The notes beneath the pieces were generated by a model. It was not told where the DNA came from. It searched no databases and worked only from the letters and a program-made list of their open reading frames with translations. From Pelomonas aquatica (GTDB taxonomy: Bacteria; Pseudomonadota; Gammaproteobacteria; Burkholderiales; Burkholderiaceae_C), in contig NZ_JAPPUW010000003.1 in assembly GCF_026712205.1 (NCBI RefSeq), positions 1-64,000 of the forward strand: 64,000 bases of DNA, read 5' to 3'. Of the stretch, positions 49,231-52,024 are shown piece by piece. The position numbers were made by a program, and so were the translations under genes. Within the stretch, counting starts at the first letter, position 1. Each line of letters begins with the position of its first letter.

Positions 49231-50358
49231 TCAGCGCCGCGCCTTCACCGCCTGCGACAGCACGTCCAGCACCGCCAGCGAGTCGTCCCAGCCCAGGCAG
49301 GCGTCGGTGATGCTCTTGCCGTATTCGAGCTTGGCGGCATCGTCCTTGCCCGGCGTGAACTTCTGGGCGCCGTCGTGCAGATGGCTCTCGACCATCACGC
49401 CGAAGATGCTCCTGCTGCCTTCGCGCAGCTGGCCGGCGATGTCGCGCGCCACGTCCAGCTGGCGCTGGTGCTGCTTGCTGCTGTTGGCGTGCGAGCAGTC
49501 CACCATCAGGCGCTGCGGCAGCTTGGCCTTGTCCAGGTCGGCGCAGGCCGCGGCGACGCTCTGCGCGTCGTAGTTGGGCGCCTTGCCGCCGCGCAGGATG
49601 ACGTGGCAGTCCTCGTTGCCGCGCGTCTCGACGATGGCGACCTGGCCGTTCTTGTGCACAGACAGGAAGTGGTGGCCGCGCGCCGCGGCCTGGATGGCGT
49701 CGGTCGCGATCTTGATGTTGCCGTCGGTGCCGTTCTTGAAGCCGATGGGCGCCGACAGGCCCGAGGCCAGCTCGCGATGCACCTGGCTCTCGGTCGTGCG
49801 CGCGCCGATGGCGCCCCAGGCGATCAGGTCGCCGATGTACTGCGGCGAGATCACGTCCAGGAACTCGCTGCCGGCCGGCATGCCCAGGCGGTTGATCTCC
49901 AGCAGCAGCTGGCGGGCGATGCGCAGGCCCTCGTCGATGCGATAGCTCTCGTCCAGGTAGGGGTCGTTGATGAGGCCCTTCCAGCCCACCGTCGTGCGCG
50001 GCTTCTCGAAGTAGACGCGCATGACGATCTCCAGCGTGTCGGCGTACTTCTCGCGCTGAGCCTTGAGCTTGCGGGCGTAGTCGATGGCGGCCGTCGGGTC
50101 GTGGATGGAGCAGGGGCCGATGACGACGAGCAGCCGGTCGTCCTGGCTGCCCATGATCCTGCGGATACTCTGGCGCGTCTGGCTGATGAGGCCTTCCATC
50201 GCGGTGCCGCGGATCGGGAAGAAGCGGATCAGGTGCTCCGGCGGCGGCAGCGGCGTGATGTCGAGGATGCGCTCGTCATCGGTGGCGCTGGTCTTGTCGT
50301 CCTGCGAGTACCAGCGCTGGGCTTCGGGTTCGACGGACTGGAGCTTGGTTGCATTCAT
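49231..50358 (-). CDS. aroG: 3-deoxy-7-phosphoheptulonate (DAHP) synthase, class I
   Basis: 375 residues of the AroFGH type, which joins phosphoenolpyruvate and erythrose 4-phosphate as the first step of aromatic amino acid synthesis. Conserved blocks are LLVVIGPCSIHDPTAAIDYARKL, MRVYFEKPRTTVGWKGLINDP, GARTTESQVHRELASGLSAPIGFKNGTDG, the metal and substrate region VMVDCSHANSSKQ and FGVMVESHL. It is probably feedback-sensitive to one aromatic amino acid. The leader upstream (50378-50502) has all parts of a transcription attenuator with a Phe/Tyr/Trp-rich leader peptide, pointing to control by phenylalanine. Confidence 0.97.
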   Translation of the reverse strand: MNATKLQSVEPEAQRWYSQDDKTSATDDERILDITPLPPPEHLIRFFPIRGTAMEGLISQTRQSIRRIMGSQDDRLLVVIGPCSIHDPTAAIDYARKLKAQREKYADTLEIVMRVYFEKPRTTVGWKGLINDPYLDESYRIDEGLRIARQLLLEINRLGMPAGSEFLDVISPQYIGDLIAWGAIGARTTESQVHRELASGLSAPIGFKNGTDGNIKIATDAIQAAARGHHFLSVHKNGQVAIVETRGNEDCHVILRGGKAPNYDAQSVAAACADLDKAKLPQRLMVDCSHANSSKQHQRQLDVARDIAGQLREGSRSIFGVMVESHLHDGAQKFTPGKDDAAKLEYGKSITDACLGWDDSLAVLDVLSQAVKARR

Positions 50359-50381
50359 CTTCGGGACCTCGGAAATGAAAA

Positions 50382-50410
50382 AACCGCCGGGCTTTTGGGG
50401 CCCGGCGGTT
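50382..50410 (-). terminator. Attenuator terminator in the aroG leader
   Basis: On the minus strand, AACCGCCGGGC-CCCAAAA-GCCCGGCGGTT followed by a T-run (six T from the arm end on) forms a perfect 11-base terminator 24 bases before the aroG start. Its 5' arm (50402-50409) is exactly complementary over 8 bases to the end of the upstream leader peptide gene (50452-50459), which can form the competing antiterminator. Confidence 0.88.
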
Positions 50411-50439
50411 CTTGGGGAGTCTGGGTTCGGCGCGCGCGC

Positions 50440-50502
50440 TCAGGACTCTCCACCGCCGGAGCGGGGAAAAAACCAAAAGCGAAAGTAAGCGGCGCGGGAC
50501 AT
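50440..50502 (-). CDS. aroG leader peptide (attenuation)
   Basis: A 20-codon reading frame from ATG at 50502 to TGA at 50440-50442. Residues 6-12 read YFRFWFF: six aromatic codons (four Phe, one Tyr, one Trp) in seven, followed by PRSGGGES. It is followed by the terminator at 50382-50410 before aroG. Stalling of the ribosome on the Phe codons would leave codons 15-17 (CCGGCGGT) free to pair with the terminator's 5' arm; completing translation would mask them and allow termination. The Shine-Dalgarno sequence is weak, so translation may be leaderless or begin at the in-frame GTG two codons upstream. Identity as a regulatory leader is an inference from these parts. Confidence 0.78.
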   Translation of the reverse strand: MSRAAYFRFWFFPRSGGGES

Positions 50503-50560
50503 GGGCACGGAATCTAGCACGGCGGCAGGCATGGGCTTTCGCGAGACGCCAAGGATCGCT

Positions 50561-52024
50561 TCAGGCCGTGCCGCCTACCGTCAGGCCGTCGATGCGCAGC
50601 GTCGGCTGGCCCACGCCCACCGGCACGCTCTGCCCCTCCTTGCCGCAGACGCCCACGCCGGTGTCGAGCTGCATGTCGTTGCCGATCATGCTGACGCGGG
50701 TCAGCGCGTCCGGCCCGTTGCCGATCAGGGTGGCGCCCTTGACGGGGTAAAGGATCCTGCCGTTCTCGACCCAGTAGGCCTCGCTGGCCGAGAACACGAA
50801 CTTGCCGCTCGTGATGTCGACCTGGCCGCCGCCGAAGTTGGTGGCGTACAGGCCCTTCTTGATGGACGCGACGATCTCCTTCGGGTCGTTCTTGCCGCCC
50901 AGCATGTAGGTGTTGGTCATGCGCGGCATGGGCACATGGGCATAGCTCTCGCGGCGGCCGTTGCCGGTCGGGGCGGTCTTCATCAGCCGCGCGTTCATCG
51001 CGTCCTGGATATAGCCCTTCAGGATGCCGTCCTCGATCAGCACATTGCGCTGGCTGGCGCAGCCCTCGTCGTCGACGTTGAGCGAGCCGCGGCGGTCGGG
51101 CAGCGTGCCGTCGTCCAGCACGGTGACGCCCTTGGCCGCGACGCGCTGGCCGATGCGGCCCGAGAAGGCGCTGGAGCCCTTGCGGTTGAAGTCGCCCTCC
51201 AGCCCATGGCCGACGGCCTCGTGCAGCAGCACGCCGGGCCAGCCGGGGCCGACGACGACGGTCATCTCGCCGGCCGGCGCGGGGCGGCTGTCGAGATTGG
51301 TCAGCGCCGCATGCACGGCCTGCTCGACATAGCTCGCGATCATCTCGTCCGTGAAAAGCCCCAAGCCGAAGCGGCCGCCGCCGCCGCCCGAGCCTACCTC
51401 GCGGCGGCCGTTGCTCTCGGCGATGACGGTGATGGACAGGCGCACCAGCGGGCGCACGTCGGCGGCCAGCGTGCCGTCGGCGCGGGCGATCAGCACGACC
51501 TCGTGCTCGGCGGCCAGGCCGGCCATGACCTGGGCGACGCGCGGGTCCTTGGCGCGCGCCAGCTTCTCGGTGCGCTCCAGCAGCGCGACCTTGGCCGCGC
51601 TGTCCAGGCTGGCGATGGGGTCGGCCACGCCGTAGAGCTCGCGGCTGCCGGCCACGCGGCTCTGGCTCGGCACCTTGACCTTCTTGCTCTGGCCGGCGGC
51701 AGCGATGGTGCGCACGGTGCGGGCGGCGTCCAGCAGCGAATCCAGGGAGATGTCGTCGGAGTAGGCGAACGCCGTCTTCTCGCCCGCCACGGCGCGCACG
51801 CCGACACCCTGGTCGATGCTGAAGGACCCGCTCTTCACGATGCCCTCCTCCAGGCTCCAGCCCTCGGCGCGCGTGGTCTGGAAGTAGAGGTCGGCGTCGT
51901 CGACCCGATGCTCGGTGATGAGGCGCAACGCCTGCGTGAGCGAAGCCTCGCTCAGGCCAAAGGGCTCCAGCAGCGCGGCGCGGGCGGTGGCGAGACGGGC
52001 AAGGGTGGGTTCGACGGCGATCAT
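50561..52024 (-). CDS. tldD: Metalloprotease TldD
   Basis: 487 residues of the TldD/PmbA family. The zinc motif HEAVGHGLEGDFN (HExxxH) is at about residues 245-257, with the conserved Asn/Asp-rich GCASQRNVLIEDGILKGYIQD, ESYAHVPMPRMTNTYMLGGKNDPKEI, NFGGGQVDITSGKFVFSASEAYWVENG and TLIGNGPDALTRVSMIGNDM blocks. TldD works with PmbA (TldE) as a heteromeric peptidase that degrades unfolded peptides and matures some RiPPs; PmbA is not in the window. Its stop is 58 bases before the aroG leader peptide ATG. Confidence 0.97.
   Translation of the reverse strand: MIAVEPTLARLATARAALLEPFGLSEASLTQALRLITEHRVDDADLYFQTTRAEGWSLEEGIVKSGSFSIDQGVGVRAVAGEKTAFAYSDDISLDSLLDAARTVRTIAAAGQSKKVKVPSQSRVAGSRELYGVADPIASLDSAAKVALLERTEKLARAKDPRVAQVMAGLAAEHEVVLIARADGTLAADVRPLVRLSITVIAESNGRREVGSGGGGGRFGLGLFTDEMIASYVEQAVHAALTNLDSRPAPAGEMTVVVGPGWPGVLLHEAVGHGLEGDFNRKGSSAFSGRIGQRVAAKGVTVLDDGTLPDRRGSLNVDDEGCASQRNVLIEDGILKGYIQDAMNARLMKTAPTGNGRRESYAHVPMPRMTNTYMLGGKNDPKEIVASIKKGLYATNFGGGQVDITSGKFVFSASEAYWVENGRILYPVKGATLIGNGPDALTRVSMIGNDMQLDTGVGVCGKEGQSVPVGVGQPTLRIDGLTVGGTA

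Follow-up and report, generated by a model that had tools for sequence, protein, structure and literature searches.

The window, by which we mean the whole 64,000-nucleotide stretch of Pelomonas aquatica DNA that was analysed, carries on its minus strand aroG, a gene for a type I 3-deoxy-7-phosphoheptulonate (DAHP) synthase whose product matches PF00793 at 1.4e-93 and TIGR00034 aroFGH at 1.7e-160. A pmbA/tldD-family gene on the same strand precedes aroG, and the space between the two genes is occupied by a 20-codon leader open reading frame (ORF), which begins with an ATG at 50502-50500 and ends with a TGA at 50442-50440, and by a hairpin with a T-run. The features of this region, all on the minus strand, are given below in 5' to 3' order.

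50561-52024, minus strand: pmbA/tldD-family gene, upstream of the leader and aroG.
50511-50519, minus strand: extended -10 box TGCTAGATT, 8 nt before the leader ATG (sequence; motif in relatives).
50440-50502, minus strand: leader ORF with Tyr, Phe and Trp codons, peptide MSRAAYFRFWFFPRSGGGES (sequence; aromatic-ORF scan; leaders of relatives).
50467-50487, minus strand: aromatic codon cluster TAC TTT CGC TTT TGG TTT TTT (Y F R F W F F) (sequence).
50452-50459, minus strand: segment 2, the putative antiterminator 5' strand CCGGCGGT, inside the leader ORF (sequence, folds, relatives).
50444-50451, minus strand: 5' side (GG and GAGTC) of a second antiterminator helix, its partner stretch ending at about 50414 (predicted fold of 50466-50402).
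50400-50410, minus strand: segment 3, the terminator 5' arm AACCGCCGGGC, able to pair with segment 2 or segment 4 (sequence, folds).
50382-50392, minus strand: segment 4, the terminator 3' arm GCCCGGCGGTT (sequence, folds).
50378-50383, minus strand: T-run of the intrinsic terminator, overlapping the last two stem bases (sequence).
49231-50358, minus strand: aroG, the regulated gene in our reading (domain matches).

The leader is the sole ORF of 8-40 codons with at least six F, Y or W in eight on either strand of the 64 kb, counted as a single ORF with four nested starts, and the same criterion yields none in 20 mononucleotide-shuffled windows. Direct reading of the sequence bears out three statements of the initial annotation: a 20-codon leader with six aromatic codons in seven (YFRFWFF), a perfect 11-base terminator with a T-run 24 bases before the aroG ATG (from the stem end to the ATG at 50358), and an 8-base segment at 50459-50452 complementary to the terminator 5' arm, where the match to ACCGCCGG (50409-50402) is exact.

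The two 11-bp stem arms of the terminator enclose the loop CCCAAAA. In the last leader codons, CCGGCGGT is a repeat of the hairpin 3' arm and can therefore pair with the 5' arm. The predicted fold of leader and terminator together is better than that of all 200 dinucleotide shuffles (z -4.3), and the terminator segment of the window reaches -28.1 kcal/mol (z -3.7). The antiterminator segment is predicted at -26.0 kcal/mol with a z of -1.55, and 17 of 200 shuffles are as good, so its stability is unremarkable for its composition. In the minimum-energy fold of the full-length element the terminator forms and segment 2 is taken up by a local hairpin. A simple consensus scan reported neither a promoter nor a terminator at the element; our guess is that the terminator escapes the scan because the stem takes up the A/T run, and that the promoter does so because its extended -10 is not accompanied by a matching -35.

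Relatives of aroG, which are found on viral contigs and plasmids as well, allow the arrangement to be followed across 88 loci, 80 from named contigs and 8 from genomes (L001 was dropped as a duplicate of L002). A sense ORF with at least five aromatic codons in eight lies within 400 nt upstream in 66 of the 88, as against two on the antisense strand of the same loci and none on either strand 400-800 nt upstream. The 66 have in common a short leader ORF rich in codons for the products of the pathway, a mark of leader-peptide attenuators. The 22 loci that lack a leader include Polynucleobacter, two Cupriavidus copies, Thauera, Azoarcus, Methylotenera, Dechloromonas, Enterovibrio and Chitinimonas, and one of the leader-negative loci, L027, falls barely below the five-in-eight threshold. 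Three Polynucleobacter loci (L033-L035) and a betaproteobacterial bin (L057) have aroG without the aromatic leader, and the element may have been lost in these four. Our own scan detected a terminator in 64 of the 66 leader-bearing loci and none in L081 and L084 (Oxalobacteraceae bacterium AB_14 and Rugamonas rivuli). Both have clear aromatic leaders about 55 nt before the aroG match, and their true aroG start may lie further downstream; with no terminator found, they were left out of the pairing, 1:2-hairpin and later counts.

Two further loci deserve separate mention. On a contig labelled Anaerolineae (L088, about 1281-1457), an aromatic leader (MSRYFSFFSWYGYFAAGQ...) and a long hairpin stand before aroG, the hairpin arm being without the CCGCC core; either the contig is mis-binned or this attenuator is put together differently. 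L088 is included in the leader:arm pairing, 1:2-hairpin, codon and promoter counts and excluded from the footprint, column and codon-position, GGYGG-frame and stall counts and from the tips of the AroG tree. In the 420 nt ahead of the Pfam match of the host genome's second DAHP synthase (G000:C21:14914-15807, L091), about 240 nt when counted from the likely gene start, neither an aromatic leader nor a terminator is seen, and on this ground only one of the host's two DAHP synthase isoenzymes appears to be attenuated.

The leaders are accompanied by a promoter motif. Of 104 distinct leaders, 64 are preceded by an extended -10 box, TGNTANNNT, that stops 6-9 nt short of the ATG, where 0.5 would be expected by shuffling; the 104 include near relatives and are not independent. 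An SD-like tetramer stands upstream of the leader ATG in only three of the 104, compared with 62 of 95 at the aroG starts of the same loci (a start was found for 95 of the 104). The usual distance from a -10 box to the start of transcription places that start at or beside the leader AUG. We infer that transcription begins at or next to the leader ATG, and the leader mRNA is probably leaderless, because the box lies 6-9 nt before the ATG and the SD-like motif is nearly absent; the initial annotation had overlooked this probable leaderless start. Burkholderia- and Massilia-type leaders have, by eye, TATAAA or TATAGT further upstream and no SD, and these leaders probably carry a short untranslated stretch.

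For wider searches, a covariance model (R1) was built from an alignment of 56 of the 64 leaders (L008, L038, L047, L053, L055, L064, L076 and L088 were left out); it models mostly sequence, along with 9 base pairs, and in a few cases its leaders came from genomes that were then searched. R1 matches 146 of 150 genomes of the host's family, the weakest best E-value being 1.7e-14, and all four family genomes without a match are known from incomplete or fragmented assemblies, with 210-700 contigs and a completeness of 55-90%. Among the matches listed, 92 genomes have both an aroG match and an R1 match, and in all 92 the R1 match lies 24-123 nt upstream of the aroG match on the same strand. Across the host's order, which the named relatives suggest to be Burkholderiales, full-length matches were found in 77 of 300 genomes, from 14 families among the matches listed, and 30 of these 77 were examined for an adjoining aroG. 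A second family, f13, gave full-length matches in 14 of 60 genomes. We take f13 to be Xanthomonadaceae-like because its leaders (e.g. MNASCRSFYFWYYGFPMPLAEEGSRSP) resemble the leader of Xanthomonas bonasiae (L087), and aroG follows the element in 11 of 11 further f13 loci. The class-wide search matched 36 of 274 genomes at E 0.001; among the matches listed, five cover the whole model at E <1e-12, three of them in the host's family and two in f13. Partial matches in the order and class searches, always towards the terminator end, were excluded from the element counts, and the large searches ran with stricter filters that lose weak matches. When 69 loci were checked, all 44 with a full-length match at E <1e-12, the window's own included, were found to precede aroG, and aroG was absent from all 25 weak-match loci (24 partial matches and the full-length match in G470 at 1.2e-5, locus L114).

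The part of the leader that would form the antiterminator is strongly conserved. A GGYGG core, whose partner is CCGCC in the terminator 5' arm, occurs no more than 30 nt past the last aromatic codon in 101 of 103 leader tails, with 19.5 expected. It is read in frame 0 in 44 leaders, in frame 1 in two and in frame 2 in 55, and it encodes Gly-Gly in some leaders and an Ala-centred pair in others. Since this segment-2 core stands in two main reading frames, it is kept for its bases, as RNA, and not as peptide. Next to the core, in columns counted without L071, L103, L152 and L088, position -1 is C:G:C in 47 rows of 100 and T:A:T in another 24, and 2:3 pairing is possible there in 81, above all 2000 shuffles. 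The next position outward, -2, shows no excess of 2:3 pairing (74 of 100 rows, 75.0 by shuffling), and position -3 pairs in 41 of 100 rows, where shuffling gives 29.1 on average and 42 at most. Over the 101 tips of an AroG tree there are only three changes of the arm letter, one of which coincides with a change in segment 2 (P 0.24); the compensatory pattern at position -1 is lineage-bound and therefore not independent evidence. The comparison of orthologues that the initial annotation named as a possible refutation did not refute it: the aromatic leaders and the terminator/antiterminator pairing turned up in most loci. The predicted compensatory changes come down to a one-position lineage pattern that is unreplicated on the tree.

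It might be argued that the hairpin merely closes the upstream pmbA/tldD transcript and that the Phe-rich ORF is there by chance; the pmbA/tldD-family gene ends at 50561 on the same strand, and intergenic terminators are ordinary. Such a transcript end would not, however, account for a promoter box between that gene and the hairpin at a near-fixed distance from the leader ATG, for an aromatic ORF that is absent in shuffled windows and nearly absent in control regions, for the retention of segment 2 in nearly every leader tail, or for the position of the element directly before aroG in every genome compared. We regard this explanation as very improbable, and leader-peptide attenuation of aroG remains the preferred reading.

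Pairing between the leader tail and the terminator arm is consistent with attenuation. For 50 of 64 loci, no more than 5 of 100 shuffled tails give a predicted duplex as good as the real one. The mean pairing of a leader with its own arm (-14.7 kcal/mol) is only slightly better than that across species (-13.8 kcal/mol), because the core is nearly invariant. With leader, terminator and pairing each recovered in most of the loci that could show them, the proposal of the initial annotation that aroG is under leader-peptide attenuation stands in outline, with its details on codons and on novelty corrected below. When segment 4 is omitted, as in the nascent RNA, the predicted fold has all five 2:3 core pairs for 55 of 56 relatives and four for the remaining one, and in 55 of 56 it also has a further helix, of three pairs or more, inside the core pairs. 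These are counts of per-sequence folds, used in place of an RNAalifold consensus; RNAalifold on the segment 2-3 region of a MAFFT alignment gave no consensus pairing, and the GGCGG core is shifted by one base in some rows. The modelled antiterminator would exclude the terminator, and it overlaps the end of the leader.

A 1:2 pause hairpin and a leader with its own SD characterize the four-segment attenuators of E. coli; the aroG element has neither as a general feature. A 1:2 pause or protector hairpin reached the level of at most 5 in 100 shuffles in 12 of 64 loci, with a median shuffle rank of 40.5 of 100. Pairing of the leader start with segment 2 was accordingly rejected as a general feature; it is clear mainly in Burkholderia-type leaders. 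In that group (L050-L064) the leader start TCCGCCA is complementary to TGGCGGA in segment 2, a candidate for a lineage-specific 1:2 hairpin.

The codon content of the leaders points to all three aromatic amino acids. Phe is present in all 104 distinct leaders, Tyr in 101, Trp in 80, and all three in 77. Phe, at whose codons the initial annotation places the stalling, is therefore found throughout, usually together with Tyr and Trp and not alone. Within the eight-codon cluster, TGG occurs in 75 of 101 leaders (5.6 expected) and a Tyr codon in 98 of 101 (34.8 expected), where the expectation comes from nucleotide shuffling, a mild control; the leaders are, moreover, related. Over 5253 pairs, differences between clusters number 6853, 16954 and 17121 at the first, second and third codon positions, a count of little value, since it is position 2 that distinguishes the codons of Phe, Tyr and Trp from one another; the 131 pairs with an identical hexapeptide have 163 differences, all in the third position as must be, which is no test.

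The order of the cluster and the residues around it differ widely among leaders, some orders such as F.YFWF recurring, and the peptide tail is not conserved. These observations bear on the idea that the nascent leader peptide senses a free aromatic amino acid in the ribosome tunnel, in the manner of TnaC arrest, and not charged tRNA. Tryptophan-dependent arrest peptides do exist, TnaC being described as one (PMC8429421, PMC12566513), and the recurrent orders could be taken in the same sense. A specific arrest sequence is nevertheless ill served by a variable order with variable flanks and by a segment-2 part read in differing frames, and sensing of scarcity through codons requires nothing more than what is present, so that we allow tunnel sensing only a slim chance.

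We conclude that the element is very probably a ribosome-mediated transcription attenuator, through which aroG is probably switched on when aromatic amino acids run short. In the mechanism that we propose from the sequence, transcription would begin at or beside the leader AUG, and the leader would be translated as a leaderless mRNA. With Phe, Tyr and Trp tRNAs charged, the ribosome would reach the leader stop codon and cover segment 2, segments 3 and 4 would pair, and RNA polymerase would terminate at about 50378. With any of these tRNAs scarce, the ribosome would stall on the aromatic cluster and leave segment 2 free to pair with segment 3 as soon as the latter has emerged, and aroG would be transcribed.

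The geometry of the leaders is compatible with this scheme if the ribosome footprint is assumed to extend to 15 nt past the first P-site base. In the window, a stall at five of the six aromatic codons would leave segment 2 free, and a ribosome at the leader stop codon would cover it. With the same fixed footprint, contact between a terminating ribosome and the core is predicted for 50 of 63 leaders, and full coverage for 23. Among 101 leaders, stalls that leave segment 2 free fall on 393 of 446 Phe, 171 of 186 Tyr and 73 of 77 Trp codons, and in 69 of the 101, Phe, Tyr and Trp are each represented by at least one such codon. Because stalls at Phe, Tyr and Trp codons mostly free segment 2, starvation for any single one of them should give read-through into aroG.

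E. coli has three DAHP synthase isoenzymes and two repressors. A far-reaching version of our reading, which we rate a little below an even chance, is that a leaderless attenuator reads all three aromatic tRNAs, so that a lone shortage of Phe, Tyr or Trp opens the entry to the shikimate pathway, and that this is an old control, in at least 14 families of the host's order and a Xanthomonas-like family, in which one RNA does the work of E. coli's three isoenzymes and two repressors. This three-way gate is a prediction, because Tyr availability is described as without effect on the comparable aroR-aroF of C. glutamicum (PMC11802643).

Attenuation of a DAHP synthase, which the initial annotation saw as a different logic, is not new as such, since aroR-aroF of C. 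glutamicum has already been reported (Neshat 2014, via PMC11802643, PMC4046766). Both systems place an aromatic-codon leader peptide before DAHP synthase, and the two would work alike. Stalling on aroR (Phe-Tyr-Phe) is said to raise transcription under Phe limitation (PMC11802643, PMC4046766); that system is actinobacterial and, in the passages of these sources that concern it, has Phe-Tyr-Phe with no mention of a Trp codon, in contrast to six aromatic codons here. RNA-level control has likewise been predicted for other DAHP synthase or shikimate genes, in other lineages or with the hosts unstated in the passages cited: the Acholeplasma uORFC-13-1 before aroF, a predicted leader with an RBS and at least one Phe (PMC8632094), the Shewanella aroF and aroH motifs (PMC2659441) and uORFs of shikimate genes as computational candidates (PMC6429828 Fig. 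6). An attenuator of E. coli aroF was once hypothesised (cited in PMC8632094). Close parallels in construction are pheL-pheA, pheST and trpL of E. coli (PMC11802643, PMC5343134), each with a leader ORF of cognate codons, a terminator and a competing antiterminator; unlike the aroG element, the pheA, pheST and trp attenuators control terminal-branch enzymes or a tRNA synthetase.

For the probable leaderless start, the parallel is trpL of S. meliloti, whose RNA begins at the ATG of the leader ORF and whose leader peptide is leaderless; it differs from the aroG element in regulating trpE(G) through Trp codons, in its alphaproteobacterial host and in its reported roles in trans (PMC7298713). Another explanation would be that the main product is the short terminated transcript, some 125 nt long, or the peptide encoded by it, acting in trans as rnTrpL and peTrpL do in S. 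meliloti, and that control of aroG is secondary. The predicted leaderless mRNA starting with the leader AUG is indeed the layout of rnTrpL (PMC7298713). Against a main function in trans, aroG follows every strong full-length match that was followed up and the tail of the leader peptide is not conserved, and we give this explanation the least credence of those considered; control of aroG in cis is preferred. In B. cenocepacia, 82 short 5' UTRs have been reported (PMC5688073).

Among the literature matches listed, none described an aroG leader from Burkholderiales or Xanthomonas, and an earlier mention in Vitreschak 2004 or Neshat 2014 is possible. Rfam 15 at gathering score reports only a tRNA in the window; with matches up to E 1 admitted, the best at the element has an E-value of 0.17 and 16.1 bits, to be compared with a gathering score of 46.6, and nothing relevant appears. 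NCBIfam 20 has no match for six leader peptides. As neither Rfam 15 nor NCBIfam 20 matches it, annotation pipelines probably overlook the element. What is new is the case, a widespread putative aroG attenuator in Burkholderiales and Xanthomonas-like bacteria, and not DAHP synthase attenuation, which was already known.

The flow into every aromatic amino acid is set by DAHP synthase, and what textbooks say of its control, with TyrR, TrpR and isoenzymes, is based on enterobacteria. An RNA control conserved before aroG would explain how DAHP synthase is adjusted in many Burkholderiales and some Xanthomonas-like bacteria. To our knowledge, few leaderless attenuators have been recognized, and the aroG element adds a likely one to them. 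It also offers a simple model of how one leader may integrate three amino acids.
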